Shown: piece by piece, positions 6,891 through 23,544 of the stretch
How the letters are laid out: each line of letters starts with the position of its first letter
How positions within the stretch are numbered: the first letter of the stretch is position 1
Assembly (NCBI GenBank): GCA_900547645.1
Contig: URHP01000022.1
Location: forward strand, 1 to 23,629
Direction: 5' to 3'
Source: an uncultured Eubacteriales bacterium
GTDB taxonomy: Bacteria > Bacillota > Clostridia > Christensenellales > Borkfalkiaceae
Length of the DNA stretch: 23,629 nucleotides
Notes under the pieces: model-generated
Seen by the model: only the letters and a program-made list of their open reading frames with translations
What the model was told of the DNA's origin: nothing
Database searches by the model: none
Position numbers and translations under genes: made by a program

Positions 6891-9236
6891 ATGCCGCGCA
6901 TACTGTATCCGATGAAACGCGCACTGAAAATCACGGGCGTTACGCTCGGAATCGTCCTCGTCGTTCTGCTCGCCATGCTCCTGTACTATCTCGGCGTGAC
7001 CGCAAACGTCCGACTCGACCGCGACAAGCTGACAATGTCCACCGCCTGTGTGCGGCTGTACGACCGATACGGAGAAGAGATCCCCGTATCCGTCCGCACC
7101 GATGCAGCGCTCGAGACGCTGCCGGAACACGTCGGGCAGGCGTTCGTCGCCGTCGAAGACAAGCGGTTCTACGAACACGGCGGCATCGATACGCGCCGTG
7201 TTTTTGCCGCGCTGTGGCACAATCTCATCAGCTTTTCTTTTCGGGAAGGCGCATCTACCATTTCACAGCAGCTCATCAAAAACACGCATCTCTCGAGCGA
7301 AAAGACCATTCAGCGCAAGCTCAAAGAGCTGAAACTTGCCCGTATCCTTGAAAAACATTACTCCAAAGAACAGATCCTCGCACTCTACCTCAACTCCATC
7401 TATTTCGGACACAGCGCCTTCGGGATCGAAAATGCCGCGCAATTTTATTTCGGAAAGCACGCCGAAGCGCTCGACGCAGCCGAAAGCGCCATGCTCGCAG
7501 CCATCGTGCGCTCCCCCAACCGCTATTCTCCCTTCCGTGACGCCGGGCTCTGCCTTTCGCGGCGCAATCTTGTGCTCAGGCTCATGAAAGAGCAGGGATA
7601 TCTGACCGAAGACGCCTGTCTTGCCGCACAGCAGGAGCCCCTTCCCGCGCAGCCCGCACAGGAACAGACGCAAAACGCCTATCTCACATGCGTCCTGGAA
7701 GAATTGGCAGAACTCTTTCCCGATGCCAAATCGGGCGACTGGGGTGCGCTGGAAGTTTTCACATACTACGATCCCGAACTGCAGGAAACGCTTGACTGCA
7801 TCGACTGCGAAAGCGATTTCTGCGCGCTCGTGCGCGACAATGCGCAAAACGCCCTGCTCGCCCTCTCTTCCACCGCCGGCACGCCGAAACGCTCCCCCGC
7901 CTCCACGATCAAACCCCTGCTCGTCTATGCGCCCGCGCTCCAGGAAAACCTCATCAATCCCGCAACGCCCGTCCTCGACGCGCGCACCGATTTCGGCGGA
8001 TATTCTCCCGACGACTACGGCGGAGCCACAGGCGAATATATGAGCGTACGGCACGCACTTTCGCGCAGCGTCAACATTCCCGCCGTAAAAATCCTGAATG
8101 AACTCGGTATTGCGCGCGGCGCGGACTACCTTGCCCGCATGAATCTCACTGTGGACGATGCAGACCGATCGCTCGCGCTCGCCCTTGGCGGCATGCGCAA
8201 GGGCTTTACGCTGCCCGCCCTTGCGGACGGCTATGCAACATTTGCAAGCGGCGGGACCTTTACGCCATCCGCCGCAATCGAACGCGTGACGGACGGCAAA
8301 GGCAGGATCCTCTACGAGCGAAACGTCCGCCGCAGAGAAGTTTTCGCGGAGGACGTCAGCTGGCTGATCAACGATATGCTCATGACGACAGCGCGGGAGG
8401 GCACCGCAAAAAGACTGAAATCCCTTCCCTTTCCCGTCTGCGCCAAGACGGGGACCGCGGGAACAGACGCCGGAAATACGGACGCATACTGCATCGGCTA
8501 CACCCGCGATCACGTGGTGGGCGTATGGATGGGAAACGAAGATTATACGCCCGTTCAGGCGAGCGGCGGCGGACTTCCCGCAAACGAAACGCTCCGCATC
8601 CTGCGCGGGCTCTACAAAGACGGCGCGCCCTCTCCCTTTCCGGCATGCGACGGCGTGACAGAGCTGCATTACGACAAGGAAGCCTACGAAACCGATCATA
8701 CCGTTCTGCTCTCCGATCCCGCCGCGCCGCCCTATACCGATCCGAAAGAGTATTTCCGTCTGAGCGCGCCGCCCCTTCCCGTCAGCACGCGCTATTCGCT
8801 CCCCAGCATCAAAACGCCTGCCATCAGCGTCCAAAACGGCACAGTCAAAATAGTATTATGTCAGACAGAGTACTATGATTATGAAATTATAAGAGAAAAT
8901 CGTGGCAAAAAAGCCACGATCTACTGCGGAAAATACCGAAATACCATCTGCGACAATTCCGTTCGGGCGGGAGAGACTTACGTCTATACCGTCCTGCCGA
9001 AATACAAAGAACACACGGGAACCCCCGTTGTGCTCCCCTCCGTCACGCTTCCCTCCGCGGGCAGCATCCCGGACGATTGGTGGCGCACTCAATGCAGCGG
9101 AATGCGCTCGAGCGTGGCAAGCGCCTCCGCAACAAGTCCCTCTATATCCAGCTTTTTCTCCTCTTCCTCGATAAAGGAGAGTTTGGGTTTGATCGCGGGA
9201 TACTCCGGCAGAAACACGGTACAGCAATCTTCATAG
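6891..9236 (+). CDS. class A penicillin-binding protein (GT51 glycosyltransferase plus transpeptidase)
   Basis: This bifunctional enzyme polymerises lipid II and cross-links peptidoglycan on the outer face of the membrane. One N-terminal membrane helix (about residues 14-34) is followed by a GT51 domain. That domain has the catalytic Glu89 in VEDKRFYEHGGID, then GASTISQQLIKN and LALYLNSIYFG. The transpeptidase domain has STIK (S338 nucleophile, K341), SVN (393-395) and KTGT (519-522). The stretch between the two domains is short. A beta-rich tail of about 120 residues ends the protein. No clear ribosome binding site precedes the ATG at 6891 or the in-frame ATG at 6912 (MKRALKITG, a natural-looking N-terminus), so the start is uncertain. 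The last 148 bp overlap the 3' end of thiI on the other strand. Codons around 8847-8920 are unusually AT-rich. Confidence 0.93.
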   Translation: MPRILYPMKRALKITGVTLGIVLVVLLAMLLYYLGVTANVRLDRDKLTMSTACVRLYDRYGEEIPVSVRTDAALETLPEHVGQAFVAVEDKRFYEHGGIDTRRVFAALWHNLISFSFREGASTISQQLIKNTHLSSEKTIQRKLKELKLARILEKHYSKEQILALYLNSIYFGHSAFGIENAAQFYFGKHAEALDAAESAMLAAIVRSPNRYSPFRDAGLCLSRRNLVLRLMKEQGYLTEDACLAAQQEPLPAQPAQEQTQNAYLTCVLEELAELFPDAKSGDWGALEVFTYYDPELQETLDCIDCESDFCALVRDNAQNALLALSSTAGTPKRSPASTIKPLLVYAPALQENLINPATPVLDARTDFGGYSPDDYGGATGEYMSVRHALSRSVNIPAVKILNELGIARGADYLARMNLTVDDADRSLALALGGMRKGFTLPALADGYATFASGGTFTPSAAIERVTDGKGRILYERNVRRREVFAEDVSWLINDMLMTTAREGTAKRLKSLPFPVCAKTGTAGTDAGNTDAYCIGYTRDHVVGVWMGNEDYTPVQASGGGLPANETLRILRGLYKDGAPSPFPACDGVTELHYDKEAYETDHTVLLSDPAAPPYTDPKEYFRLSAPPLPVSTRYSLPSIKTPAISVQNGTVKIVLCQTEYYDYEIIRENRGKKATIYCGKYRNTICDNSVRAGETYVYTVLPKYKEHTGTPVVLPSVTLPSAGSIPDDWWRTQCSGMRSSVASASATSPSISSFFSSSSIKESLGLIAGYSGRNTVQQSS
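8891..8922 (-). terminator. probable rho-independent terminator of the arginine operon, inside the opposing PBP gene
   Basis: The minus strand carries ATCGTGGC (8920-8913), a six-T loop, GCCACGAT (8906-8899), then TTTCTCTT. This is a perfect 8-bp stem followed by a T-rich run. It lies about 170 nt downstream of the thiI stop, where an operon terminator would be expected. On the plus strand the stem is not followed by T residues, so it should not act on PBP transcripts. The run is interrupted by C, so efficiency is uncertain. Confidence 0.6.
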
Positions 9237-10253: not shown

Positions 10254-11372
10254 TCAGTTTCCTCCGAAGGCACGCGCCGCATCGTTCATGGCGTATGCCG
10301 CACGTTCCGCGTCTTCCGACGTGTTCTGCGGCGAAAAACTGACGCGAAGCACACCGTCCAGCACGTCAGTCGTATATCCGCACGCCTGCAGCACGCGGCT
10401 GTGCGGTTTTTTGGAATTGCACGCACTTCCCGTTCCGACGGCAACGCCCCTGTCCCAGAGCATTCTCTGCAGCGTCTCGCCCCGCTTTCCGGCCGCGGAT
10501 ACAGTCAGAATATAGGGAGATCCGTCCTTCGGAGAAAGACGCGTGAACATTTGCTTGTCGAGCAATTCCCAGAGCCGTTCCTTAGCCGCCGCAATGCGCT
10601 GCGCGTCCGCTTCCAAAGCGCTGAATTTTTCCCGTGCGGCATATTCAAAGCAGGCGATTCCGAACACGTTCTCCGTCCCGCTTCTCAGCCCGTTTTCCTG
10701 TCCGCCCCCATGCAGATAGGGCGCAAGCCCCGCATAGCCCTTCCGGCGCACAAGCGCGCCCGTCCCTTTCAGTCCGCCGATCTTGTGCGCGCTGACGGAA
10801 TAAAGGTCAATGTCCTTGGTCAGCCGCACGGGGATCTTTCCGAACGCCTGCACGCCGTCACTGAAAAATACGGCGCGCGGATTTTTTTCCTTGACGCGGC
10901 GCGCGATCGCGGCAATATCGTTGACTGCGCCCGTCTCATTGGAAACATGAATGACGGAAACCAACGCAGTCTTTTCATCCACCAACTCCAGCAGTGCGTC
11001 CGCATCCACGCTTCCGTCCGCATGCAACGGTGCAAAGCGCGGCTCCACACCGCGGTTTTTCAGTTCTTTATAGCTTTCAAAGACAGCGGCATGCTCCCCC
11101 TGCGTCGTCACGGCGTTGCCGCGCCGCGCCGCAGAAAAAATCGCCTGGTTATCCGCCTCCGTCCCGCAGGACGTGAAGACAAGGGAAAACTGCGCAGGAT
11201 CCGCGATCTGCGCAATCAGATAAGAACGCGCTTCCGACAGAAGCCTGCCCGCTTCCGCTCCGCCCCCATAGAGCGCCGACGGATTATAATAGCATTCCTT
11301 CAAAAAATGTTCTGCATGCGCAAGCGCCCCGTCGAGGGGGCGCGTCGTCGCAGCATTGTCAAGATAGATCAT
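10254..11372 (-). CDS. cysteine desulfurase (NifS/IscS family, NifZ-like partner of ThiI)
   Basis: This PLP enzyme takes sulfur from cysteine as an enzyme-bound persulfide. The 372-residue sequence starts with YLDNAATT. It has the PLP-stacking His94 (GEHAAV), NETGAVNDI, the Schiff-base Lys197 in SAHKIGG and the persulfide-forming Cys318 in GTGSACNSKK. The cysteine sits in the longer loop of the class I (IscS/NifS) type rather than the SufS type. Adjacency to a ThiI lacking its rhodanese domain matches the B. subtilis nifZ-thiI pair, so donation of sulfur for tRNA thiolation is the likely role. No iron-sulfur scaffold gene is nearby. The ATG overlaps the stop of the preceding membrane protein gene as ATGA. 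Confidence 0.93.
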   Translation of the reverse strand: MIYLDNAATTRPLDGALAHAEHFLKECYYNPSALYGGGAEAGRLLSEARSYLIAQIADPAQFSLVFTSCGTEADNQAIFSAARRGNAVTTQGEHAAVFESYKELKNRGVEPRFAPLHADGSVDADALLELVDEKTALVSVIHVSNETGAVNDIAAIARRVKEKNPRAVFFSDGVQAFGKIPVRLTKDIDLYSVSAHKIGGLKGTGALVRRKGYAGLAPYLHGGGQENGLRSGTENVFGIACFEYAAREKFSALEADAQRIAAAKERLWELLDKQMFTRLSPKDGSPYILTVSAAGKRGETLQRMLWDRGVAVGTGSACNSKKPHSRVLQACGYTTDVLDGVLRVSFSPQNTSEDAERAAYAMNDAARAFGGN

Positions 11373-11974
11373 TGTCTTTCAAACTTATTCCGTCCCGCCG
11401 CAAAGACGAGATATTCCAGCAATTCCTTTCTGCACTCAAGCACGTACACTCTCTTTTCGATTGACGAAGAATAGAGCAGATAAATAAAGATTTTCCCTTC
11501 AGCCGGTTCATTGTTCGGCGTGAGCGGGACCGCCTTTTTCCCCTGCAGTCCCGCCACAGTCCGCTCAAAGGATGGATTTTCAACATATCCGATCTTCAGG
11601 ATCTGATCAGCCTTGAACGTGTGCAGATGCTTGCGCGACTTCCCGTTGAATACCTTGGTGACGCGGAGTTCGTCTTCCACGAATGTATAGTCAAAGCTGA
11701 GGTTATTTTTTCGCTTGATATGGCGGAACAGGAAGAAAAATCCGACCAGCATCAAAATGGGAAGAAACCAAACGACCAGATTGACCGCCTTTTCCGTTCC
11801 CGTCAGTTCCGGATCGCTGATGATGCCGGGAACAAACGTGAGCGAAAGCAGCACAAGGAACGCCGCGATGACCAATACGACAATGCTCGCAATGTGGAAG
11901 ACCTGGTACATCCTGCGTTCCGACTTCTCCCGCGTCGATACGGCGCTCTCTTCATAGAATGCAGAGCGCGCCAT
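11369..11974 (-). CDS. small membrane protein of unknown function, two transmembrane helices
   Basis: I do not recognise a named function. The 201-residue protein has a short charged N-terminus and two hydrophobic helices (about 23-50 and 62-85). A basic turn RHIKRKN is followed by a soluble beta-rich C-terminal domain of about 110 residues (FDYTFVEDELRVTKVF, then IFIYLLYSSSIEKRVYVLECRKELLEYL in two blocks). This looks like a membrane-anchored PH-like fold, and similar small proteins occur in Clostridia, but that is only a resemblance. The start codon overlaps the carB-dapF stop as TGATG with GGAG about 6 nt upstream, and its stop overlaps the cysteine desulfurase start. It is therefore a genuine, coupled operon member, probably inserted between the arginine and thiolation genes. 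Confidence 0.8.
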   Translation of the reverse strand: MARSAFYEESAVSTREKSERRMYQVFHIASIVVLVIAAFLVLLSLTFVPGIISDPELTGTEKAVNLVVWFLPILMLVGFFFLFRHIKRKNNLSFDYTFVEDELRVTKVFNGKSRKHLHTFKADQILKIGYVENPSFERTVAGLQGKKAVPLTPNNEPAEGKIFIYLLYSSSIEKRVYVLECRKELLEYLVFAAGRNKFERQ

Positions 11975-12816
11975 CAGAACTCCACCGTGCCCTCATAAAT
12001 TTTTTCGACGTTGCCCGTCAGCGTGACGTGTCCGTCCTCGGAATTATACCGCACGAACAGGTCGCCGCCCTTCACTTTGACGGTGATGTCGGTGTCCGCC
12101 TTGCACAGACCGTTGAGCACGCATGCAACCGCCGCGGCAGCCGCACCCGTTCCGCACGCCCACGTCTCGCCGTTGCCGCGCTCCCAGACGCGCATTTTCA
12201 CCGTGCTCTCATTGACGACACGGATAAATTCCACATTCGTCTTGGCGGGGAAGTATTCGCTGTTTTCGATGCGCGGTCCGAGCGTCGAAACGGGGACGTC
12301 GTCCACCTTATCGCAGAAAATGACGCAGTGCGGATTACCGAGATTGACGAGCGTGACGTGATAGGTCTTCCCGTCGATCTCCATGGGCTGATTGACGACC
12401 CTTTCCCCCTTCCATACGGACGGGATGCACTCGCCGCGCAGTTCCACCGTACCAAGATCGGCGCTCGCCGAAGTCACGACGCCGCCGAAGGAATACACCT
12501 TGACTTCTTTGACGCCGCTCATCGTCTCGATGGACATGCTCGGTTTTTTGACGATGCCCTTTTCATAGAGGTATTTCGCAACACAGCGGATGGCGTTTCC
12601 GGCAATCTGCCCCTCGCTGCCGTCCTGATTGAAGATGCGCATTCTGGCATCTGCAACATCAGAGCGCTCGATGAGCACGATCCCGTCCCCGCCAATGCCG
12701 TAATGCCTGTCCACAAAGTTGATGGCAAGCGATTCGGGGCAGGTGATCTTGCCTTCCAGATCTTCAAAATAGATATAGTCATTCCCGCAGGACTGCATTT
12801 TTGTAAAGGCAAGTTC
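11974..12816 (-). other. DapF-like domain of the fusion, first catalytic cysteine replaced by alanine
   Basis: DapF interconverts LL- and meso-diaminopimelate with two cysteines acting as acid and base. The domain keeps GNDYIYF, GIGGDGIVL, RIFNQDGSEG, GNPHCVIF, TNVEFIRV and ERGNGETWACGTG. The second catalytic cysteine is Cys1293. The first, normally in the MCGN(G/A)-RC segment, is Ala1144 here (GQIAGNAIRC, codon GCC at 12603-12601). The later cysteine of that segment, Cys1150, remains but is also present in active enzymes. The spacing of residues 1144 and 1293 from the domain start matches Cys73 and Cys217 of the H. influenzae enzyme. No start codon exists at the normal DapF N-terminus (ELAFTKM); the first ATG (12798) falls inside the first strand. 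Epimerase activity is therefore doubtful. Confidence 0.85.
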
Positions 12817-15800
12817 CGTCTTCTTCGTGCGCAGATTGTTGATGTCCACAAGCTCGGTGTTATATTCGGTGAACTTGCTTGCAATGATGTCGCACAGAGC
12901 ATTCGCCGTATCCAGCGACGTCAGCACGGTGATCCCCAGCAAAATGGCATGGTGATGCAGTTCGATATAGTCGGCAATGGAATCGACGTCCGTCTTTCCG
13001 GTATAGATGATATAGTCGATCTTACCCTCGTCCATGAGCCCGGAAACCTGCTTGGTCGCCTTCAGGCGGTCAACCACCGTGACGTCGATGCCGAGTTCGG
13101 AAATGACTTTGGCTGTCCCCGCCGTCGCATAGAGATTGCAGCCGAGATCGGCAAACTTCTTTGCGATGGACACGATCTCGAACTTATCCTGATCGTTGAC
13201 GGTAAAGTATACGCCGACGGGCTTTTCCTTGGTCGGGTGACACATTTTGAAGCCCGCGGAGACAAGACCTTTGAAGAGCGCTTCTTCAATGGTCTTTCCG
13301 ATGCCCAAAACTTCGCCCGTCGACTTCATCTCGGGTCCGAGCTGCGAATTGACGTCATTGAGCTTCTCGAAGCTGAACACGGGAACCTTGACGGCGACGT
13401 ACGGCGAATTGGGATACAGCCCCGTGCCGTAACCGAGCTTTCTGAGCTTTGCGCCCACCATGATCTTGGTTGCAAGCTCCACCATCGGCACACCCGTGAC
13501 CTTGGAAATATAGGGAATGGTGCGCGATGCGCGCGGATTAACTTCAATGACGTAGAGCTGATTCTGATAGATGAGGTACTGAATGTTGATCAGCCCCTTC
13601 GTCTTCAGCGAGAGCGCAAGCTTTGTGGATATATCCACGATCTTTTCCAGCATCGCATCGCTCAGATGATAGGGCGGATACACAGCGATGGAGTCGCCCG
13701 AGTGTACGCCCGCGCGCTCGATATGCTGCATGATCCCGGGAATGAGCACGTCCACGCCGTCGGAAATGGCGTCTACTTCCAGCTCGCTGCCCATCAGATA
13801 TTTATCGCAGAGCACGGGGTTTTCGATATGTTGCGCAAGGATGACGTCCATGTAGCGCGAAATATCGTTCTCCGTAAAGGCGATGGTCATGTTCTGACCG
13901 CCGATGACGTAGGAAGGACGCAGCAGCACGGGATAGCCGAGCTTTTCGGCGGCGGCGAGCGCTTCCTCCTTCGTCATGACGGTGAGCCCTTTCGGACGGG
14001 CGATATGGAATTGTTCCAGAAGCTCGTCGAAGCGCTCCCTGTCCTCCGCCATATCCACGGAATCTGCACTCGTGCCGAGGATGCGCGCGCCCGACCTGTC
14101 GAGATAGCCGCACAACTTGATCGCCGTCTGCCCGCCGAAGGTAATGACGACGCCGTAAGGCTTTTCCACGTCGAGCACGTTCTGTACATCTTCCGGCGTG
14201 AGCGGCTCAAAATACAGACGGTCCGCCGTATCGAAGTCGGTAGAGACCGTCTCCGGATTGTTGTTGATGATGACGACCTCGTAACCCAGCTCTTTGAGCG
14301 TCCAGACGCAGTGGACGGAGGAATAGTCGAATTCGATGCCCTGTCCGATGCGGATCGGTCCGGAGCCGATGACCACAATGCGCTTTTTCGTGCTGTTCTT
14401 TACGAACGGGAGCGCTTCGTCATGGTCGGGTTCGTCGTATGTCGAATAGAAGTACGGCGTCTTTGCCGCGAATTCCGCGGCGCAGGTATCCACCATTTTG
14501 AATACGGCACGGCGGTGCGCCGGCAGCTTTTCGCCCGAGAAGCGGGCAAGCGCCTTATCGGGATAACCAAGCCGTTTCCCCTCCAAATACTGCGCGCGGG
14601 ACAGCTTTTTACCTGTGATCGACGCCTCATAATCGGCAAGATTTTTGAGTTTGCAAAGGAACCATTCGTCGATTTTGGTCACGGCATAGATCTCTTCGAT
14701 CGGGATCCCCTTCTTGATCGCGGCATAGACGGCAAACAGACGCTCGTCCGTCATTTTGCCGATCTCGGTGCGGAGCTGCTGCGCATCCATCGGTTCGAAT
14801 TTGGAATGGTTGAGCGTATCCAGCCCGATCTCCGCACCGCGTACCGCCTTCATGATCGCCTGCTCGAACGAAGTGCCGATCGCCATGACCTCGCCCGTCG
14901 CCTTCATTCTGGAGCCGAGCGCGCGCCCGGCATACAGGAACTTATCGAAGGGCCACTTGGGAAGTTTGACGACGACATAGTCGATCGCGGGCTCGAAGCA
15001 AGCGTACGTCTTGCCCGTCACGTCGTTGCGGATCTCGTCAAGCGTGTAACCGAGCGCGATCTTGGTCGCGACCTTCGCAATGGGATAGCCCGTCGCCTTA
15101 CTTGCAAGCGCGGACGAACGGGACACACGCGGATTGACTTCGATGACCGCGTACTCGAAGCTGTCCGGATGAAGCGCGAACTGACAGTTACAGCCGCCCT
15201 CGATCCCGAGTTCGGTGATTATGTTGAGCGACGCCGTACGCAGCATCTGATATTCCTTATCGGAGAGCGTGAGGCAGGGCGCTACGACGATGGAATCGCC
15301 CGTGTGAATGCCGACGGGATCGAAATTCTCCATCGAACAGACCGTGATCACATTGCCCGCGCTGTCGCGCAGCACTTCGAACTCGATCTCCTTCCAGCCG
15401 CCGATATATTTTTCGATCAGGACCTGCGTGATGGGAGACAGCATGAGCCCGTTGTGCGAAATGAGCCGAAGTTCCTCCTCGTCGTGCGCGACGCCGCCGC
15501 CCGCGCCGCCCAGCGTAAACGCAGGACGCACGATGACGGGATAGCCGAGCTTGTCCGCAACGGCGACGCACTCGTCCACCGTATAGGCAATATCGGAGGG
15601 AACGACGGGCTGACCGATCTTCTCCATCGTTTCCTTGAACAGCTCTCTGTCCTCGGCGCGGTCGATCGCATCCAGCTTGGTGCCGATGAGTTTGACGCCC
15701 CACTCGTCAAGGAAACCCTCTTTGGCGAGCTTGCAGCCCATGGTAAGCCCCGTCTGTCCGCCCAGCGAAGCGAGCAGGGAGTCGGGGCGTTCCTTGATGA

Positions 15801-16032
15801 TGATGCGCTTGAGGCTGTCCTCCGTCAGCGGTTCGAGGTAGATCTCGTCCGCCAGCATTTTATCCGTCATGATCGTGGCGGGATTGGAGTTGCAGAGGAC
15901 GACGTTGACGCCCGCATCCTTCAAAACGCGGCATGCCTGCGCGCCCGCATAGTCGAATTCCGCCGCCTGACCGATGACAATGGGACCGGATCCGATCACA
16001 AGTACTTTCTTAATATCACTTCTCTTCGGCAT
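11974..16032 (-). CDS. carB: carbamoyl-phosphate synthase large subunit fused to a diaminopimelate epimerase domain (CarB-DapF)
   Basis: Residues 1 to about 1070 are a complete CarB. The first half has KVLVIGSGPIVIGQ, SLGGQTGL and RPAFTLGGAGGG. The second half has RIVVIGSGPIRIGQG, TFGGQTAI and RPSYVIGG, and an MGS-like allosteric domain starts at VGVYFTVNDQDKF. After the linker NNLRTKKTEL, residues from about 1075 to 1352 are a full-length DapF domain. CarB makes carbamoyl phosphate with CarA; its arg-operon position points to arginine supply. The ATG at 16032 (AAGGAG 7 nt upstream) lies inside carA, giving a 17-nt overlap. A longer in-frame start at 16089 would lie deeper in carA and add 19 residues unlike CarB. 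No stop or frameshift separates the two parts, so the fusion is read directly from the sequence. Confidence 0.95.
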   Translation of the reverse strand: MPKRSDIKKVLVIGSGPIVIGQAAEFDYAGAQACRVLKDAGVNVVLCNSNPATIMTDKMLADEIYLEPLTEDSLKRIIIKERPDSLLASLGGQTGLTMGCKLAKEGFLDEWGVKLIGTKLDAIDRAEDRELFKETMEKIGQPVVPSDIAYTVDECVAVADKLGYPVIVRPAFTLGGAGGGVAHDEEELRLISHNGLMLSPITQVLIEKYIGGWKEIEFEVLRDSAGNVITVCSMENFDPVGIHTGDSIVVAPCLTLSDKEYQMLRTASLNIITELGIEGGCNCQFALHPDSFEYAVIEVNPRVSRSSALASKATGYPIAKVATKIALGYTLDEIRNDVTGKTYACFEPAIDYVVVKLPKWPFDKFLYAGRALGSRMKATGEVMAIGTSFEQAIMKAVRGAEIGLDTLNHSKFEPMDAQQLRTEIGKMTDERLFAVYAAIKKGIPIEEIYAVTKIDEWFLCKLKNLADYEASITGKKLSRAQYLEGKRLGYPDKALARFSGEKLPAHRRAVFKMVDTCAAEFAAKTPYFYSTYDEPDHDEALPFVKNSTKKRIVVIGSGPIRIGQGIEFDYSSVHCVWTLKELGYEVVIINNNPETVSTDFDTADRLYFEPLTPEDVQNVLDVEKPYGVVITFGGQTAIKLCGYLDRSGARILGTSADSVDMAEDRERFDELLEQFHIARPKGLTVMTKEEALAAAEKLGYPVLLRPSYVIGGQNMTIAFTENDISRYMDVILAQHIENPVLCDKYLMGSELEVDAISDGVDVLIPGIMQHIERAGVHSGDSIAVYPPYHLSDAMLEKIVDISTKLALSLKTKGLINIQYLIYQNQLYVIEVNPRASRTIPYISKVTGVPMVELATKIMVGAKLRKLGYGTGLYPNSPYVAVKVPVFSFEKLNDVNSQLGPEMKSTGEVLGIGKTIEEALFKGLVSAGFKMCHPTKEKPVGVYFTVNDQDKFEIVSIAKKFADLGCNLYATAGTAKVISELGIDVTVVDRLKATKQVSGLMDEGKIDYIIYTGKTDVDSIADYIELHHHAILLGITVLTSLDTANALCDIIASKFTEYNTELVDINNLRTKKTELAFTKMQSCGNDYIYFEDLEGKITCPESLAINFVDRHYGIGGDGIVLIERSDVADARMRIFNQDGSEGQIAGNAIRCVAKYLYEKGIVKKPSMSIETMSGVKEVKVYSFGGVVTSASADLGTVELRGECIPSVWKGERVVNQPMEIDGKTYHVTLVNLGNPHCVIFCDKVDDVPVSTLGPRIENSEYFPAKTNVEFIRVVNESTVKMRVWERGNGETWACGTGAAAAAVACVLNGLCKADTDITVKVKGGDLFVRYNSEDGHVTLTGNVEKIYEGTVEF

Positions 16033-17098
16033 TTCTCTTCTCCTTCTGCATATTGGCGATAAAGCGGTCGAACAAGAAATTGGCGTCATGCGGACCGCCG
16101 CATGCCTCGGGGTGGAACTGTACCGTAAACGCGTTCACCTCAGGATAATCGACGCCCTCGCAAGTGCCGTCGTTGGCATTGACAAACGTCAGCGTGCCCA
16201 TTCCCTTGACGGAATCGCTCACGACCTCGTAGCCGTGGTTTTGCGAAGAGATGAAGACCTTCCCCGTGGAAAGATCTTTGACAGGCTGATTGGCGCCGCG
16301 GTGCCCGTACTTCATCTTGCGCGTCTGTCCGCCCATGGCAAGCGCAAAGAGCTGATGTCCGAGGCAGATCCCGAAGATAGGCTTCCTTCCGATCAGCTTG
16401 CGGATATTTTCAACGACTTCCACATTTTCGGCAGGATCGCCCGGGCCGTTCGTCAGCATGATCCCGTCCGGATCGAGCGCAAGCGCCTGTTCCGCCGTAT
16501 AAGTCGCAGGGACCTCCATGACGCGGCAGCCGCGGCGCACAAGTTCGCGCACAATGTTCTGCTTCGCTCCGAAATCATAGAGTACGACGCGGGGTCCGTC
16601 CTCTTCGCCCGAAGTACGCACTTCGCCCGAAGAGACCGCCTTGACCGCGTCCTTCACGCGATAGGTCTTGAGTGCCGCAAGATCGGCGAGCGGTTTAAAG
16701 GTGATCGCCGCGTTCATCACGCCCGCTTCGCGGACGATCCGCGTCAGTTCGCGCGTGTCCACGCCGAACACGGCGGGGATGTCCTGCTCTTTCAAAAACG
16801 CTTCAAGCGTCATCTCACAGCGAAAATTGGAGGGCGCGTCGCACTTCTCGCGGACAACGTACGCGGTCAGCCAGCACTTTTTACTCTCCCTGTCGGACAG
16901 GATCACGCCGTAATTGCCGATGAGCGGGAAAGTCTGCGTGACGATCTGCCCGTAATAGCTCGGATCGGTGAGCGTCTCGATATAGCCCGTCATGCCCGTC
17001 GTAAAGACGAGCTCGCCGATCACCTCCCTGTCCGCGCCGAAGGAATATCCCTCGAACACCTTGCCGTTCTCCAGCGTGAGATAGACTTTCTTGTACAT
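16016..17098 (-). CDS. carA: carbamoyl-phosphate synthase small (glutaminase) subunit
   Basis: CarA hydrolyses glutamine and passes ammonia to CarB for carbamoyl phosphate synthesis. The 360-residue protein has the N-terminal CPSase small-chain domain (ENGKVFEGYSFG, ELVFTTGMTGYIE) and a class I glutamine amidotransferase domain from about residue 170. The nucleophile is Cys245 in GICLGHQL, with His329 and Glu331 in QFHPEA and the NGPGDP loop near 217. All catalytic residues are present. AAGGAG lies 5 nt before the ATG at 17098. The gene starts 16 nt after argF and its 3' end overlaps carB by 17 nt. Its place within the arginine operon suggests the arginine-dedicated enzyme, though it could also serve pyrimidine synthesis if it is the only copy. 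Confidence 0.96.
   Translation of the reverse strand: MYKKVYLTLENGKVFEGYSFGADREVIGELVFTTGMTGYIETLTDPSYYGQIVTQTFPLIGNYGVILSDRESKKCWLTAYVVREKCDAPSNFRCEMTLEAFLKEQDIPAVFGVDTRELTRIVREAGVMNAAITFKPLADLAALKTYRVKDAVKAVSSGEVRTSGEEDGPRVVLYDFGAKQNIVRELVRRGCRVMEVPATYTAEQALALDPDGIMLTNGPGDPAENVEVVENIRKLIGRKPIFGICLGHQLFALAMGGQTRKMKYGHRGANQPVKDLSTGKVFISSQNHGYEVVSDSVKGMGTLTFVNANDGTCEGVDYPEVNAFTVQFHPEACGGPHDANFLFDRFIANMQKEKRNAEEK
16040..16045 (-). promoter_or_regulatory. carB ribosome binding site inside the carA 3' end
   Basis: AAGGAG on the minus strand lies 7 nt before the ATG at 16032 and within the last codons of carA. It fixes the carB start and implies coupled translation of the two subunits. Confidence 0.75.
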
Positions 17099-17114: not shown

Positions 17115-18017
17115 TTATTTCATGACTTTGCACAGCACCGCCTTCTGTGCGTGCAGTCTGTTTTCCGCTTCTTCGAAAATTTCATCGGCGTGCGCTTCGA
17201 ACACCTCCGCGGTGATCTCCTCGCCGCGGTGCGCGGGAAGACAATGAAGGACCATCGCGTCGGACTTTGCGGCGCGCATCGCCGCGTCGTTCACCTGATA
17301 TCCCGCAAATGCCTTTTCGCGCTTTGCCTTCTCCTCTTCCTGTCCCATGGACGCCCAGACGTCGGTATACACGACGTCCGCATCCGCAGCCGCTTCCTCC
17401 ACGCTGCGCGTCAGCGCGAACGAACCGTTCTCCTTCGCCCATGCCATGAGCTGCGCATCCGGTTCATATCCCTCGGGACAGGCGATCGCAAAGGACATGC
17501 CCGTTTTGACCGCGCCCACCATCAGCGAATTTGCCATGTTGTTGCCGTCGCCGATAAAGCACATCTTCAGTCCCTTGAACGCACCCTTCTTTTCGCGGAT
17601 GGTCATAAGGTCTGCCAGCACCTGACAGGGATGGCAATAGTCCGTCAGTCCGTTGATGACCGGAATGGAACCGTATTTTGCGAGGTCCTCCACCTCGCTC
17701 TGCGCAAACGTACGGATCATGATGGCATCGAGATAGCGCGAGAGTACGCGCGCCGTGTCTTGCACGGGCTCGCCTCTGCCGATCTGCAGATCGCGGTTGG
17801 AAAGAAAGAGCGCGTTGCCGCCCAGCTCATACATTCCCACCTCAAAGGAAACGCGCGTCCGCGTGGACGCCTTCTGGAAGATCATGCCGAGCTTTTTGCC
17901 CTTCAGATAGTCCTTGAATACGCCGTGTTTGCGCTCATATTTGAGCTGATCCGCAAGATTGAGGACGGATAAGATCTCCTCGCGGGAAAGATCGGCAAGT
18001 TTCAGCAAATGTTTCAT
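17115..18017 (-). CDS. argF: ornithine carbamoyltransferase
   Basis: ArgF joins carbamoyl phosphate and ornithine to give citrulline. The 300-residue sequence has the carbamoyl-phosphate motif STRTR at 51-55, HPCQ at 129-132, the ornithine-binding DVWASMGQE at 219-227 and HCLP at 258-261. The SMG loop separates it from aspartate carbamoyltransferase. I chose the ATG at 18017 because it overlaps the argD stop as ATGA and gives MKHLLKLADLS, the family-like N-terminus. An in-frame ATG at 18137 would add 40 residues read from within argD and unlike the family. The product feeds argG, at the front of the operon, and the substrate comes from the carA and carB genes downstream. Confidence 0.96.
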   Translation of the reverse strand: MKHLLKLADLSREEILSVLNLADQLKYERKHGVFKDYLKGKKLGMIFQKASTRTRVSFEVGMYELGGNALFLSNRDLQIGRGEPVQDTARVLSRYLDAIMIRTFAQSEVEDLAKYGSIPVINGLTDYCHPCQVLADLMTIREKKGAFKGLKMCFIGDGNNMANSLMVGAVKTGMSFAIACPEGYEPDAQLMAWAKENGSFALTRSVEEAAADADVVYTDVWASMGQEEEKAKREKAFAGYQVNDAAMRAAKSDAMVLHCLPAHRGEEITAEVFEAHADEIFEEAENRLHAQKAVLCKVMK

Positions 18018-19177
18018 TTCAATACCTCTTTCAGGATGGACAACCCCTCGTCCATCTCCGTCTTCGTGATGGTCAGCGGCGGAACGATGCGCAGCCGCTC
18101 GTGCGCGGTGAGAACGAGAAGCCCCTTTGCAAGGCACTCCGCCGCCACCTGCTTGGAATTTTTCTCCAGCTCGAGACCGATCATCAGTCCCAGCCCCGTG
18201 ACCGCCTTTACGCCGTCAAAGCCCTTGAGCTTTGCGCGCATATAGGCGGCTTTTCCCTGCACTTCCAGCAAAAATTCCTCCGTCAGACGGCCGATCACAT
18301 TGACTGCCGCCGCACAGGAAACGGGATTTCCGCCGAATGTGGAACCGTGATCGCCCGCCGAAAAAGCATTTTCCGCACGCCCGAAGAAGAGACATGCGCC
18401 GATGGGAAGCCCGCCGGCAAGCCCCTTTGCCGTTGTCACGATGTCGGGCGTAATGCCGTACTGCTCATAGGCATACAGCGTGCCCGTTCTGCCGTTGCCG
18501 CACTGCACCTCGTCGCAGATGAGCAGCACGTCGTTTTCCGCGCACCATGCGGAAAGCGCGCCGACAAACGGCTGCGGAAGCGCATTGACGCCGCTCTCCC
18601 CCTGCACGCATTCGATGATCACGGCACAGGTATCCTTCCCTGCGACGCGGATCACGTCGTTTATCTCCGGCGCGGCATAGGAAACGTCCGGCACGAAGGG
18701 ACCGAAATACCGATGGAATTCGTCCTGTCCCGTTGCGGTGAGCGTGAACAGCGTCCGCCCGTGGAAACTGTTTTTGAGCGAAACGATGCGGCTTCTGCCC
18801 GCTCCGTACTTCATAAACGAATATTTACGCGCTGCCTTCAGGGCGCATTCATTTGCTTCTCCGCCCGAATTGGAGAAAAACACACGTTTGGCACCCGTCC
18901 GGTTACAGAGCATTTCCGCAAGCCGCACCTGCGGTTCCGCATAATAATAGTTGCTCACGTGCTGGATCTTTCCGAGCTGCTCGATGACCGCCGCCTTCCA
19001 CGCTTCGTCGTTCGCGCCGAAAATGTTGACGGCGATCCCCGCACCGAAGTCGATATATTCTTTCCCTTCGCTGTCCACAAGCGTCGCATTCCTGCCGCCG
19101 ACGAGCGCCACGGGATAGCGGGCGTACGTTTTGGCAAGATATTCGCCGTCCAGCTCTTTGATCTTCTGAAAATCCAT
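18014..19177 (-). CDS. argD: acetylornithine aminotransferase
   Basis: ArgD is a class III PLP aminotransferase that converts N-acetylglutamate semialdehyde to N-acetylornithine. The 387-residue protein has YIDFGAGIAVN near 41-51, the phosphate-binding SNSGGEANE at 102-110, SFHGRT at 137-142, the PLP-contacting Asp222 in CDEVQ and the Schiff-base Lys251 in TTAKGLAGG. Length and motifs fit ArgD. The related succinylornithine and GABA transaminases are less likely given the position between argB and argF. AAGGAG lies about 4 nt before the ATG at 19177. The 39-nt gap to argB is the widest inside the operon and begins with a small stem-loop. Confidence 0.95.
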   Translation of the reverse strand: MDFQKIKELDGEYLAKTYARYPVALVGGRNATLVDSEGKEYIDFGAGIAVNIFGANDEAWKAAVIEQLGKIQHVSNYYYAEPQVRLAEMLCNRTGAKRVFFSNSGGEANECALKAARKYSFMKYGAGRSRIVSLKNSFHGRTLFTLTATGQDEFHRYFGPFVPDVSYAAPEINDVIRVAGKDTCAVIIECVQGESGVNALPQPFVGALSAWCAENDVLLICDEVQCGNGRTGTLYAYEQYGITPDIVTTAKGLAGGLPIGACLFFGRAENAFSAGDHGSTFGGNPVSCAAAVNVIGRLTEEFLLEVQGKAAYMRAKLKGFDGVKAVTGLGLMIGLELEKNSKQVAAECLAKGLLVLTAHERLRIVPPLTITKTEMDEGLSILKEVLK

Positions 19178-19202: not shown

Positions 19203-19225
19203 GGTGCCTGAAAAAATCAGTCACC
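19203..19225 (-). repeat. inverted repeat (stem-loop) across the argB stop codon
   Basis: On the minus strand GGTG-A-CTGA (19225-19217) pairs with TCAG-G-CACC (19211-19203) around a five-T loop, with one mismatch in the middle. It spans the argB TGA and lies in the only sizeable gap of the arginine operon. A short T run (TTTTT) follows three bases after the stem. It could be an RNA-stability element or a weak attenuator. Confidence 0.4.
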
Positions 19226-20074
19226 TTTTACGAACATCGTACCCAGCCCCTCATCCGAGAGAAGCTCGAGCAATATGGAATGTTTGACTCTTCCGTCCGT
19301 GATGAACACGCGCCCTACGCCGTTTCGGATCGCGTCGCGGCAGCACTGCACCTTGGGGATCATGCCGCCCGAAATAACGCCTTCCTTGATAAGCGAAGGA
19401 ATATCGGAAACATACACTTTTTTAATGAGACTGCTCTCATCGTCGCGCGAACGGAGCAGCCCGCGCACATCTGTCATGAGGATGAGGCTCTCCGCCTTGA
19501 GCGCGCCCGCGATCGCAGAAGCCGCCGTATCGGCGTTGACGTTATAAATGTTGCCATCGTCATCGTATCCGACGGTGGAAACAACGGGAAGATAGCCCGC
19601 ATCCAGACAGCTCGTCAGGATATGCGTATCGACCCGATCGATCTTTCCGACAAAGCCGAGTTCTTCGCTCTCTTTGCTGCACTTCAGAAGATTGCCGTCG
19701 ATCCCCGAAATACCGATCGCACGCGCGCCCATGGCGCCGAGCATATGCACAAGGCTCTTGTTGACTTTGCCCGCGAGCACCATGCGCACGACTTCCGCCG
19801 TCTCTTCATCCGTATACCGCAGTCCGCCCACAAAGCGGGACTCGATGCCCATGCGCTTGAGTGTCTGTGAAATTTCGGGACCGCCGCCATGCACCAACAC
19901 GACTTTGATGCCGACGAAGCGCAAAAGCGTCATGTCGCGCATGACAAGCTGTTTGAGGCCGTCGTCCGTCATGGCGTTTCCGCCGTATTTTACGACCAGG
20001 ATCTTATTCTGATATTTCTCGATGTAAGGCATCGCCTCCAGGAGAAATTCTGCCTGTGCTTCTTTTCCGATCAC
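19217..20074 (-). CDS. argB: N-acetylglutamate kinase
   Basis: ArgB phosphorylates N-acetylglutamate, the usual control point when the cyclic ArgJ pathway is used. The 285-residue amino acid kinase has VVKYGGNAM at 27-35, the nucleotide-binding VHGGGPEI at 61-68, the RFVGGLRYTDEE segment near 80-91 and a late GGMIPKV. A helix of about 25 residues (AEFLLEAMPYIEKY) precedes the first strand. In arginine-inhibited kinases this extension forms the arginine-sensing ring, so feedback inhibition by arginine is likely (inference). The start is GTG at 20074, overlapping the argJ stop as GTGA, with GGAG about 10 nt upstream. Confidence 0.95.
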   Translation of the reverse strand: MIGKEAQAEFLLEAMPYIEKYQNKILVVKYGGNAMTDDGLKQLVMRDMTLLRFVGIKVVLVHGGGPEISQTLKRMGIESRFVGGLRYTDEETAEVVRMVLAGKVNKSLVHMLGAMGARAIGISGIDGNLLKCSKESEELGFVGKIDRVDTHILTSCLDAGYLPVVSTVGYDDDGNIYNVNADTAASAIAGALKAESLILMTDVRGLLRSRDDESSLIKKVYVSDIPSLIKEGVISGGMIPKVQCCRDAIRNGVGRVFITDGRVKHSILLELLSDEGLGTMFVKGD

Positions 20075-21285
20075 GTTCTGTAATCTCCGTTGATCTTTAC
20101 ATAGTCATAGGTCAGATCGCAGCCCCACGCCGTCGCGCGGTAATTGCCGTCGCCGAGCGAGACGCAAATATCGATCTCCCCTTCCGAAAGGACCTGTTTG
20201 GCTCCCTCTTCGGAAAATGCAACGCCGCGTCCGTTTTCGCAGACGGCGACTTCGCCCGCCGCCGAGCGGAAGGTCACGCCGATCCTGTCCGGATCGAGCT
20301 TCGCACCCGAATAGCCGAGCGCACACAGCACCCGTCCCCAATTGGCGTCCGCGCCGAACATTGCCGCCTTGACAAGATCGGACGAGACGACCGCTTTCGC
20401 CGCAAGGCGCGCGTCCTTCAGGCTCTTTGCACCCTGTACGCGGCATTCGATCAGTTTGGTAGCCCCTTCGCCGTCCGCGGCAAGTTTGCGGCACATGGCG
20501 GTCGTCACGGCGTTCAGCGCCCTGCAGAAAGCGCGGTAGTCCGCGTTCGGTTCGGTGATCCGCGCATTCCCCGCAAGTCCGCTCGCCATGATACAGAACG
20601 TATCATTAGTGGAAGTATCCCTGTCCACCGAGAGCATGTTGAGCGACTTCTTTACGTCCGCCGAAAGCGCCTTTTGCAGCATCTCGGAGGAGATCGCCGC
20701 ATCCGTAGTGACGAACATGAGCATGGTCGCCATATTGGGGCAGATCATGCCGACGCCCTTGCAGATGGCGCCGATCCGGCATTCTCTGCCGCCTGCAGTG
20801 AAGGAAAACGCGATCTGTTTTTTGACCGTATCCGTCGTCATGATGGCTTCCGCCGCCGCATCGCTGTTATCGCCCAGCCCTGCAACAAGCTCTGCCATCC
20901 CGTTTTCGATGGGCTCCAGCGAAAGTTTTTGTCCGATGACGCCCGTCGATGCGATCACCACGTCCCCGGCATGAATGCCCGTGCTTGCCTGCACGAGCGC
21001 GCACATGCCCTCCGCGATCTGTACGCCGCCTTCATTGCAGGTATTGGCATTGCCGCTGTTGACAATGACCGCCTGCGCATAGCCGTCCGCCACATTCTTT
21101 TGGGTGACGAGGATGGGCGCGCCCTTGACGAGGTTGGTCGTATAGACGCAAGCCGTATCGCAGCGCACGTCTGACACGATGAGCGCAAGATCTTTCTTGA
21201 TCTTATTTTTCCGGATCCCGCAATGGATCCCGTTTGCCTTGAATCCCTTGGGCGCGCATACGCCGCCCGCAATCTCTTTCAGCAT
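20071..21285 (-). CDS. argJ: bifunctional ornithine acetyltransferase / N-acetylglutamate synthase
   Basis: ArgJ recycles the acetyl group from N-acetylornithine to glutamate; in many bacteria it also uses acetyl-CoA. The 404-residue precursor self-cleaves. The site is visible as NMATML, with Thr187 as the new N-terminal nucleophile, preceded by the conserved CKGVGMI at 176-182. STNDTF and the terminal YVKINGDYRT are also present. With no argA or argE in the window, a cyclic pathway is indicated. Whether it has the synthase activity cannot be told from these motifs alone. The ATG at 21285 is preceded by AAGGAT (21297-21292). A consensus promoter lies at the end of argC immediately upstream, so argJ and the genes after it may also be read without argG and argC. 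Confidence 0.95.
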   Translation of the reverse strand: MLKEIAGGVCAPKGFKANGIHCGIRKNKIKKDLALIVSDVRCDTACVYTTNLVKGAPILVTQKNVADGYAQAVIVNSGNANTCNEGGVQIAEGMCALVQASTGIHAGDVVIASTGVIGQKLSLEPIENGMAELVAGLGDNSDAAAEAIMTTDTVKKQIAFSFTAGGRECRIGAICKGVGMICPNMATMLMFVTTDAAISSEMLQKALSADVKKSLNMLSVDRDTSTNDTFCIMASGLAGNARITEPNADYRAFCRALNAVTTAMCRKLAADGEGATKLIECRVQGAKSLKDARLAAKAVVSSDLVKAAMFGADANWGRVLCALGYSGAKLDPDRIGVTFRSAAGEVAVCENGRGVAFSEEGAKQVLSEGEIDICVSLGDGNYRATAWGCDLTYDYVKINGDYRT

Positions 21286-21300
21286 AGTCTTATCCTTGCT

Positions 21301-21329
21301 ATTATATCACAATGAAACGCCTTCGTCAA
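21301..21329 (-). promoter_or_regulatory. internal promoter at the end of argC, facing argJ
   Basis: The minus strand reads TTGACG (21329-21324), a 17-bp spacer and TATAAT (21306-21301). TG lies one base upstream of the -10 (TGATATAAT). This is a near-consensus sigma-A promoter straddling the argC stop codon. The predicted start, about 21294, is only some 9 nt before the argJ ATG and falls within its AAGGAT site, so transcripts would have a very short leader. Confidence 0.65.
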
Positions 21330-22230
21330 GCCCGAGCGCAAGATTCATATTCTGAATCGCGGCGCCGGAAGCGCCTTTCCCGAGGTTATCCAGCCGCGCA
21401 GTGAGCAGAATGCGCTCGGTATTTCCGTTGACCAGGATCTCCAGCCCGTTTGTCCCGTTCAGCGTGTTGGCTGAGACATACCCGCTCGGTTCCTTGCCCA
21501 CCCATACGAATCGCTGACCGGCATAATGCGCACGGTACAGCTCTTCCAACTGCTCCGCACCGAGCGGCTTCTGCATCAGATCGACAAAGAGCGGAACGCT
21601 GACCGTCATGCCGCAATAATAATCGCACACATACGGGTTGAACACGGGCGTACGCGCCAGGCCGCACACTTCCTTCATCTCCGGCAGATGCTTATGCATG
21701 AGCGAGAGCGCATACAGGCGGGGCGTATCATACCCCGCGGGACGGTCCGCCGCCTCGTACTCCGCGATCCCCTTCTTCCCCGCGCCGGAATATCCGCTGA
21801 CGGCGTGGCAGACAAAGGGATAATCGGGCGCGACGACGCCCGCACGGATCAGCGGATAGACGAGCGCAATGAAACCGCTCGCATAGCAGCCGGGATTGGC
21901 GATGCGCTTTCCCGACCGGATCCGCGCGCGGTGCTGCGCGGAGAGTTCGGGAAACCCGTACGCCCAATCCGGGTGCGTGCGGTGCGCGGTGGACGCGTCG
22001 ATCACGACCGTATCTTTGTTTTCCACAAGCGCCGCCGCTTCGCGGGCGGCATCGTCCGGAAGGCAGAGAAAGGCGACGTCCGCACTGTTCAGCGCGTCTT
22101 TGCGCGCAGAGACGTCCTTGCGCAGCGATTCGGGCAGCGTAATAAGCGAAATATCCAGCCGCTTTTCCAACATTTCACGAATGCGGAGACCTGTTGTCCC
22201 CGCACTCCCGTCAATAAATACTTGAAACAT
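21307..22230 (-). CDS. argC: N-acetyl-gamma-glutamyl-phosphate reductase (short, type 2 form)
   Basis: ArgC reduces N-acetylglutamyl phosphate to the semialdehyde with NADPH. At 307 residues it belongs to the shorter type 2 group. It starts VFIDGSAGTTGLRIREML, lacking the longer nucleotide-binding region of the type 1 enzymes of about 345 residues. The nucleophile is Cys115 in ANPGCYASGF. VIDASTAHR, WAYGFPEL, SGYSGAGKKG and MHKHLPEM are further family segments. The gene starts 21 nt after argG; only a weak GGCGGA precedes the ATG at 22230. Its 3' end holds the argJ promoter. The order argG-argC rather than argC first is a variation on the common argCJBD arrangement. Confidence 0.94.
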   Translation of the reverse strand: MFQVFIDGSAGTTGLRIREMLEKRLDISLITLPESLRKDVSARKDALNSADVAFLCLPDDAAREAAALVENKDTVVIDASTAHRTHPDWAYGFPELSAQHRARIRSGKRIANPGCYASGFIALVYPLIRAGVVAPDYPFVCHAVSGYSGAGKKGIAEYEAADRPAGYDTPRLYALSLMHKHLPEMKEVCGLARTPVFNPYVCDYYCGMTVSVPLFVDLMQKPLGAEQLEELYRAHYAGQRFVWVGKEPSGYVSANTLNGTNGLEILVNGNTERILLTARLDNLGKGASGAAIQNMNLALGLDEGVSL

Positions 22231-22251: not shown

Positions 22252-23481
22252 TTACTTGAGTTTTTTCTGATCGAGCAGCGCCTTGACCTTGATGGGAAGA
22301 CCGAACAGATTGATGAAGCCCTCCGAATCCTTCTGCGAATACGCCCCGCCGTCGTCCGAGAACGTGGCAATCTCTTCGCTGTACAAAGAATAGGGAGAAG
22401 TGATGCCGGCGTTCGTGACGTTGCCTTTATAGATGCGCAGCTTTACGTCGCCCGTCACCGTCTCCTGCGTCTTGCTCACAAACGCCGAGAGCGCCTCCCG
22501 TAGCGGCGTGAACCACTGACCGTCGTACACCATCTCGCCGAACTTGACCGCAACGAGCTGCTTGTAGTGCATGGTCGCCTTATCGAGACAGACCGTCTCG
22601 AGCAGCCTGTGCGCTTCGTAGAGGATGGTGCCGCCGGGCGTTTCATACACCCCGCGCGATTTCATGCCGACGAGACGGTTCTCCACAAGGTCGGCAAGCC
22701 CGACGCCGTTTTCCCCGCCGATCTTGTTGAGCGTCTCCACAAGTTCGACCGCGCCCATCTTCTTGCCGTTCACCGCGGTGGGAACGCCCTTTTCAAAGTG
22801 AATCGTGACGTAGCTCACCTGATCGGGCGCCTGCACGGGAGAAACGCCCATCTCCAGGAATCCCTCTTTTTCATACTGCGGCTCGTTGGCCGGATCCTCG
22901 AGGTCAAGCCCTTCGTGCGAAAGGTGCCACAGGTTTTTGTCCTTGGAATAGTTGGTTTCGCGGTTGATCTTGAGGGGAATATTGTGCGCTTCCGCGTATT
23001 CGATCTCCTCTTCGCGGCTCTTGATGTTCCAGATCCTCCAGGGTGCGATGATCGTCATTTCGGGCGCGAACGCCTTGATCGTCAGTTCGAAACGCACCTG
23101 ATCGTTGCCCTTGCCCGTGCAGCCATGGCAGATCGCGTCGGCGCCCTCTTTCTTGGCGATGTCCACGATCGCCTTTGCAATGACGGGACGCGCAAACGAC
23201 GTGCCGAGCAGATATTTGTCCTCATAGACGGCGCCTGCCTGCATGGTCGGGAAGATATAGTCCTCGACAAATTCCTTCTTCAGATCGAGCACATAGAGTT
23301 TGGACGCGCCCGTCTTCTTTGCCTTTTCCTCCAGTCCGTCCAGTTCCGTTCCCTGTCCGACGTCCCCGGAGACGGCAATGACCTCGCAGTTATCGTAATT
23401 TTCCTTGAGCCACGGGATGATGATGGAGGTATCAAGTCCGCCCGAGTACGCAAGAACCACCTTTTTGATCTTCTTTTCCAT
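22252..23481 (-). CDS. argG: argininosuccinate synthase
   Basis: ArgG condenses citrulline and aspartate using ATP to give argininosuccinate, the penultimate step of arginine synthesis. The 409-residue protein has the N-type ATP pyrophosphatase P-loop AYSGGLDTS at 11-19, then [16 protein letters not shown], the [15 protein letters not shown] segment and APWRIWNI. Length and motifs match the family. I chose the ATG at 23481, which gives [15 protein letters not shown] and has GAGGA 8 nt upstream. In-frame starts further upstream, such as the ATG at 23544, lie ahead of the predicted transcription start. It is the promoter-proximal gene of the arginine operon, while argH for the next step is not in this window. 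Confidence 0.96.
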
Positions 23482-23497
23482 TTGAAAATTCCTCGCT

Positions 23498-23509
23498 TGA
23501 ATTTTTTCA
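23498..23509 (+). promoter_or_regulatory. possible ARG-box-like operator at the argG transcription start
   Basis: TGAATTTTTTCA combines a TGAAT half with a TTCA half of the ArgR box. The halves are 2 bp closer than in the textbook site (TGAAT-4-ATTCA). It covers about +1 to +12 of the predicted argG transcript, a good place for arginine-dependent repression. The spacing mismatch keeps confidence low. Confidence 0.35.
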
Positions 23510-23515
23510 TATGCC

Positions 23516-23544
23516 ATTATACAGAGCGCGGGGGCGCAAGTCAA
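23516..23544 (-). promoter_or_regulatory. sigma-A type promoter of the arginine operon (argG)
   Basis: The minus strand reads TTGACT (23544-23539), a 17-bp spacer and TATAAT (23521-23516), close to consensus in sequence and spacing. The predicted start near 23509 leaves a leader of about 28 nt with the argG ribosome binding site. That is too short for a T-box, riboswitch or attenuator, so control should act at the promoter. Confidence 0.85.

Follow-up and report, generated by a model that had tools for sequence, protein, structure and literature searches.

A carbamoyl-phosphate synthase large subunit fused to a DapF domain that seems to have lost catalysis several times

In an uncultured Eubacteriales bacterium (GTDB family Borkfalkiaceae; assembly GCA_900547645.1), the large subunit of carbamoyl-phosphate synthase (CPSase), CarB, and the diaminopimelate (DAP) epimerase, DapF, are encoded as one chain. 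The gene occupies positions 11974..16032 on the minus strand of contig URHP01000022.1, of which we analyzed a stretch of 23,629 nucleotides (hereafter the window): it begins with an ATG at 16032, ends with a stop codon at 11974-11976 and encodes 1352 amino acids. In this family of fusions, catalysis by the appended enzyme was seemingly lost several times, its domain being retained. With moderate confidence, we read the DapF half of the window protein as a predicted dead epimerase that likely serves, behind the CPSase allosteric domain, as a non-catalytic module for dimerizing or for binding a ligand.

The fusion can be read directly from the DNA: a single stop-free frame runs across 11974-16032 in the minus-strand translation of the window (the initial annotation, which had pointed out an in-frame CarB–DapF fusion, left the strand unstated), and the profiles of both domains match above their cut-offs. 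The CarB part (residues 1-1053; 12874..16032, minus strand) is covered by NF003671 over its whole length (1445.6 bits; cut-off 599) and by TIGR01369 over residues 2-1048 (1400.9 bits; cut-off 1027), and includes the MGS-like allosteric domain (PF02142, residues 952-1038; 12919..13179, minus strand). Both cut-offs are curated ones, and carA adjoins the gene. As in E. coli-type CarB (TIGR01369; 1bxr), all the CarB domains are present, in order and above the equivalog cut-off; however, whereas the 1073-residue E. coli CarB has nothing beyond the allosteric domain, the window protein continues through a short junction into a whole DapF. An alignment to E. coli CarB indicates that Thr974 and Thr977 are kept and that Lys993 is replaced by Arg, the comparison being partial since the allosteric region alone was unmatched at 1e-3 and the alignment of a longer stretch stopped at residue 1017, which keeps the ornithine site near Thr1042 out of the evidence.

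The junction (residues 1054-1074; 12811..12873, minus strand) contains no stop, although the initial annotation had considered that a stop or a frameshift might turn up there, and no ATG immediately precedes the DapF part, in line with the proposal that the normal DapF start codon is gone. The linker, put at roughly ten residues, measures 12 from the NTELVD motif of CarB to the F-x-K-M start of DapF. The DapF domain (residues 1075-1350; 11983..12810, minus strand) matches positions 2-268 of the 270 of TIGR00652 with 255.1 bits (cut-off 114.65). The family of bifunctional DapF/glutamate racemases, NF038284, is not reached (116 bits against a cut-off of 350). A 1367-residue open frame on the plus strand (11959-16062), antisense to the whole fused gene, was taken as a shadow of its codon usage.

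The fusion is old-looking, common in the class and, on the literature searched, apparently undescribed. A protein search restricted to long chains (candidates of 744-2366 residues), scored on residues 1040-1352, returned 6474 proteins with an expect value (E) of 1e-3 or better among 7993 scored, and all of the 120 nearest proteins among the matches listed have the CarB–DapF architecture. A scan of species genomes gave 80 related loci, 78 of which carry CarB sequence and DapF in one frame; the other two (L074 and L079) have their start within DapF, at a contig end or close to one. Close relatives are therefore fused as well, rather than all having separate carB and dapF genes. For a wider view we used order, class and phylum samples, all centred on a genome, G038, that was chosen for carrying the fusion and is counted in each. 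In the order sample, 87 genomes had a DapF match in a frame longer than 600 residues before the DNA was read, and the fusion is present in 86 of 197 genomes (85 confirmed by DNA reading, plus G233); the remaining one of the 87, G129, turned out to carry a DapF–MurE fusion. The class and phylum counts are lower bounds set by strict E-value limits: at least 57 of 391 genomes of the class sample have a stop-free single-frame CarB–DapF match (E of 1e-90 or better), as do at least 15 of 299 genomes of the phylum sample for a CarB–DapF match at 1e-120. A search with an intact fusion added at least 120 further fused proteins among the matches listed, including one from the named Lachnospiraceae species Anaerotaenia torta (P0233) and others from metagenome-assembled genomes (MAGs) labelled Oscillospiraceae and Treponema; the labels Planctomycetaceae, Chitinispirillia and Treponema of MAGs among these matches may be binning errors. 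The literature searches made, including a wider one, found no paper describing a CarB–DapF fusion, and the fusion goes unmentioned in the available excerpts of a survey of amino-acid pathways in gut genomes (PMC9026213). In three loci (L061, L076 and L191) the fused frame starts inside CarB, with 443, 644 and 702 residues, and there is no contig end at that place in the DNA read: either a sequencing frameshift or a real break in CarB would account for them.

The DapF part of the window protein lacks a catalytic residue. Catalysis by DapF uses two cysteines, Cys73 and Cys217 (PMC4227774 and PMC3581254). Compared with DapF proper (TIGR00652; 2otn, 1bwz), the window domain has no start codon of its own, is joined to CarB, and has Ala1144 (codon 12601..12603, minus strand) in place of the first cysteine, the second being kept as Cys1293 (codon 12154..12156, minus strand). 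Its epimerase activity is predicted to be absent because the catalytic cysteine is missing, and the same strong inference extends to the whole branch of the window: the first-cysteine position holds Ala in all of the 120 nearest proteins among the matches listed, and it holds Ala in 75, Gly in three and Cys in one (L076) of the 79 related loci that are readable (L079 lacks this column). The claim of a complete DapF domain consequently stands for the fold, as judged from the full-length match and from structure matches, and falls for the active site.

Of the 84 readable fusions of the order sample, 66 lack one or both catalytic cysteines, and the other 18 keep the two. G129, which carries a DapF–MurE protein, was left out of the scoring, as were G233, whose fusion is counted with its cysteines unscored, and, for the count of both cysteines, G089, which lacks the second-cysteine column. 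Ala, Gly, Ser, Phe or Thr replaces the first cysteine, and Ser or Asn the second; the second cysteine is retained in 93% of the cysteine-less fused copies. Of the 120 proteins listed from the intact-fusion search, 72 keep both cysteines and 14 have Ser at both positions (six of these 14 were checked letter by letter). Among the Ser/Ser proteins are P0149, P0172, P0181, P0235 and P0237, the last two labelled Treponema sp.

The domain has nevertheless been kept under constraint. The median ratio of nonsynonymous to synonymous substitution rates (dN/dS) is 0.066 for the fused DapF in 70 close pairs, five of them pairs of intact fusions, against 0.0195 for the last 400 CarB residues in the same pairs and 0.119 for separate DapF in the 15 pairs in which both copies were read; the 70 are the most similar of 179 candidate pairs and are not independent. 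Of the sites with 95% conservation or more among separate copies, only that of the first cysteine has a different commonest residue in the cysteine-less fusions. A retained fold, a lost catalytic residue and purifying selection on the domain together fit a pseudoenzyme. The junction is likewise nearly invariant: it measures 12 residues in 141 of the 144 measured fused frames and 19 in the other three (144 of 163 frames were measurable by pattern, the repeat readings L083 and L140 having been removed), which argues for a single origin and a fixed geometry. In a structural model of the window protein, the predicted local distance difference test (pLDDT) score is low at junction residues 1054-1065 and high in the DapF part, which has strong structural matches.

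The ligand pocket has fared differently from one branch to another. In the branch of the window, the equivalents of Asn11, Asn64, Asn157, Asn190, Glu208 and Arg209 are kept, so that ligand binding is possible there. In the Coproplasma branch, by contrast, Asn190 is replaced by Tyr or Phe, Arg209 often by Lys and Gly74 by Ala; with several pocket residues changed, no ligand role can hold for all the fusions.

A single origin of the fusion, from adjoining carB and dapF genes, is probable; the protein was presumably bifunctional at first, catalysis then being lost repeatedly. In a quick DapF tree of 207 rows, which keeps 23 of the near-identical loci L001-L080 and leaves most of them out, a minimum of three changes lies between fused and separate copies, and the branch that splits off first within the main fused clade retains both cysteines. 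Nine cysteine losses are counted on this tree if regain is disallowed, a figure that is approximate because the supports are uneven. Two genomes of the class, G276 (L260) and G496 (L261), illustrate how small a change fuses the two genes: carB and dapF are separate neighbours there, carB ends with TAA, dapF starts 12 (L260) or 15 (L261) bases further on in the same frame, a purine-rich stretch resembling a ribosome-binding site lies between the carB stop and the dapF ATG, and dapF has both cysteines. A separate dapF (L264, genome G493) falls inside the fused clade, and the 7.5 kb of DNA read there contains no carB; a fission or a duplication is possible in this case. The same possibility applies to G245, which has a second, separate dapF besides the fused one (L262/L263), and to G227, in which a separate dapF (L273) lies about 2 kb from the fused gene.

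Other sources of meso-DAP are found in many of these genomes. A second, separate DapF is present in 34 of the 38 genomes reached from the first loci, with both cysteines in all 29 copies read (five of the 34 were left out). In the order sample, a separate DapF match accompanies the fusion in 48 of 86 genomes, and an intact-cysteine separate copy was found in 44 of the 45 genomes read, G196 being the exception (the copies of G132, G147 and G234 were left out of this reading). Ddh, which yields meso-DAP without DapF (pathway variant P4, PMC9026213), was sought in all 86 fusion genomes of the order sample and in four more, weak matches (G067, G119 and G212; E 1e-13 to 1e-19) being scored as absent. 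Genomes with a separate DapF or Ddh comprise 59 cysteine-lost and 12 intact fusions, as compared to seven and six for genomes with neither (Fisher p 0.028, kinship ignored); for first-cysteine loss against a separate dapF, a test in which G089 was included, Fisher p is 1.4e-4 (kinship likewise ignored). The intact or lost state changes only six times on a tree of the fused copies.

How a dead epimerase might serve a CPSase is suggested by two known systems. DapF forms a dimer, and the E. coli DapF(C73&217A) variant, which does not epimerize, still binds RppH and stimulates it (PMC4227774). We propose that the fusion shares with the E. coli DapF–RppH pair (PMC4227774; 6d13) the use of the DapF fold as a protein partner regardless of epimerase activity; the E. 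coli DapF differs in that it is separate and naturally active and has an RNA pyrophosphohydrolase as its partner, whereas the window DapF is covalently fixed to a CPSase. Effectors of E. coli CPSase bind its C-terminal domain, and the enzyme relies on its regulatory domains to dimerize (PMC6245113); we propose a role in this dimer for the DapF fold, which adjoins the regulatory domain. An initially active CarB–DapF enzyme would have been followed by forms in which the DapF half became a retained pseudoenzyme module; its fold, 12 residues behind the regulatory domain and so well placed to alter the CPSase dimer, would pair with another DapF domain and thereby set or stabilize that dimer, and in the branch of the window the pocket, which is nearly intact, may have kept the ability to bind DAP or a related amino acid. 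HisZ, a dead enzyme relative that serves as the regulatory subunit of ATP phosphoribosyltransferase in an amino-acid pathway, offers a likeness, proposed here, in that a dead relative regulates an amino-acid pathway enzyme; HisZ differs as a separate chain and belongs to another fold family. DapF is also joined to another enzyme in one chain in G129 of the order sample (L280:171-2531), a 786-residue DapF–MurE protein in which an N-terminal DapF with both cysteines precedes the ligase that acts on the epimerase product, meso-DAP: this fusion follows pathway logic, unlike CarB–DapF.

The initial annotation had ventured that the DapF part could act as an extra regulatory or docking module, for instance by sensing DAP. 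The general idea gains support from the loss of cysteines under purifying selection, from the near-constant linker and from the RppH-activating dead DapF of E. coli, and we infer a regulatory role. The particular proposal fares less well: the pocket is mostly kept in the branch of the window and eroded in that of Coproplasma, which falls short of a specific sensor. In its boldest form, the dead DapF would be a built-in DAP sensor that binds DAP without turnover, closes and changes the CPSase dimer, thereby coupling the provision of arginine and pyrimidines to that of precursors for the cell wall and lysine across a large part of Clostridia; we consider this rather unlikely.

Several observations weigh against the reading of the DapF half as a retained non-catalytic module with the history given above. 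The tree is a quick one with uneven supports, in which L209 (fused) and L264 (separate) fall outside their own groups; the relative placement of CarB and DapF is uncertain in the model (predicted template-modelling score 0.66); and the eroded Coproplasma pocket speaks against a ligand common to all. In five cases a fused copy with both cysteines exists alongside a second DapF match. Conversely, of the 13 order-sample genomes that lack both a separate DapF and a clear Ddh, seven have lost a cysteine, and so have G012 and G023, outside that sample; incomplete MAGs or other routes could explain these genomes. When kinship is controlled, at most five independent pairs remain (sign test p 1) and the link to an alternative route is unsupported, so that the idea that a spare meso-DAP route permits cysteine loss is plausible but not established; the strict rule that a cysteine is lost only where another route exists was given up in view of these exceptions and of the kinship control.

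Among the other explanations, the one that comes closest to the retained module holds that CarB came to need the DapF fold for its folding or solubility, the dead domain being kept as a passenger with no regulatory role. Structural dependence would fit the near-constant linker and the strong purifying selection, and a ligand-free role the pocket erosion in Coproplasma; however, the pocket residues in the branch of the window are mostly kept, beyond bare structural need, and dN/dS is no higher in fused than in separate copies. We regard this passenger role as a real, if minor, possibility. It is improbable, in our view, that the fused DapF is still catalytic, the remaining cysteine carrying out a slow or one-way epimerization or the racemization of another amino acid. 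Such activity has a precedent, which also counts against a dead domain, in a racemase that still works one way with one catalytic Cys replaced by Thr (PMC8142540); the DapF-fold proteins PhzF and HisR perform other chemistry, and the frequent retention of the second cysteine would be explained. But Ala, Gly and Phe, which are among the replacements, cannot donate a proton, other lineages lose the second cysteine instead, or both (the Ser/Ser proteins), the double Ala mutant of E. coli DapF (C73/C217) does not convert LL-DAP (PMC4227774), and single Cys-to-Ser mutants of the DapF-related HisR are greatly slowed (PMC11602996).

An ordinary bifunctional enzyme, with two active halves and with a fusion that simply keeps the dosage of two housekeeping functions coordinated, would suit the 18 copies with both cysteines, including those of six genomes in which neither a separate DapF nor Ddh was found, as well as Anaerotaenia torta (P0233). 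It does not suit the window and the 66 cysteine-lost copies, and CarB and DapF have no common substrate; we hold it to be very improbable. As for an artefact of assembly or gene calling, its probability is negligible: the same junction, with its near-constant linker, is found in many separate assemblies across the class, and we discarded this explanation on the number of separate occurrences.

The retained, predicted non-catalytic DapF module would bear on more than one pathway. No CPSase large subunit other than fused CarB was found in 18 of the 25 genomes checked (a short G002 fragment being taken as part of that genome's contig-cut fused gene), the other seven having one or two further unfused copies; in the 18 genomes, anything that the DapF part may do thus bears on both arginine and pyrimidine synthesis. 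Fusions usually join enzymes of the same pathway, both of them active; here, unrelated pathways are joined and the second enzyme has apparently been inactivated repeatedly, by different residue changes, with its domain still kept. Intact, half-lost and eroded states coexist today, forming a natural series that leads from a bifunctional enzyme to a pseudoenzyme. Annotation is misled as well: a genome may be credited with two DAP epimerases although one of them is dead, or with one although none exists.

In the window, the fused gene closes a run of arginine genes in the order argGCJBDF–carA, all on the minus strand: argG (22252-23544), argC (21307-22230), argJ (20071-21285), argB (19217-20074), argD (18014-19177), argF (17115-18137) and the small-subunit gene carA (16016..17098; NF009475), whose 3' end overlaps the first bases of the fused frame. 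Among the 44 related loci longer than 20 kb, carA lies directly ahead of the fused frame on the same strand in all 44, and argC, argJ, argB, argD and argF are each present in 39. The other five (L029, L042, L064, L068 and L075) have the fusion and carA with none of these five arginine genes within 10 kb, so that the role of the fusion may be independent of the arginine operon. No RNA element reached its gathering threshold in the window, and a plasmid origin was set aside for want of a plasmid match (phage records were not searched). Downstream, the end of the fused gene is overlapped by a minus-strand gene of 201 residues (11369-11974), weakly DUF6106-like below the cut-off, which has a relative in 17 of the 44 long loci. 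Further on, a minus-strand open frame of 523 residues (7263-8834) has no Pfam or NCBIfam match; a relative of it is present in 23 of the 44.

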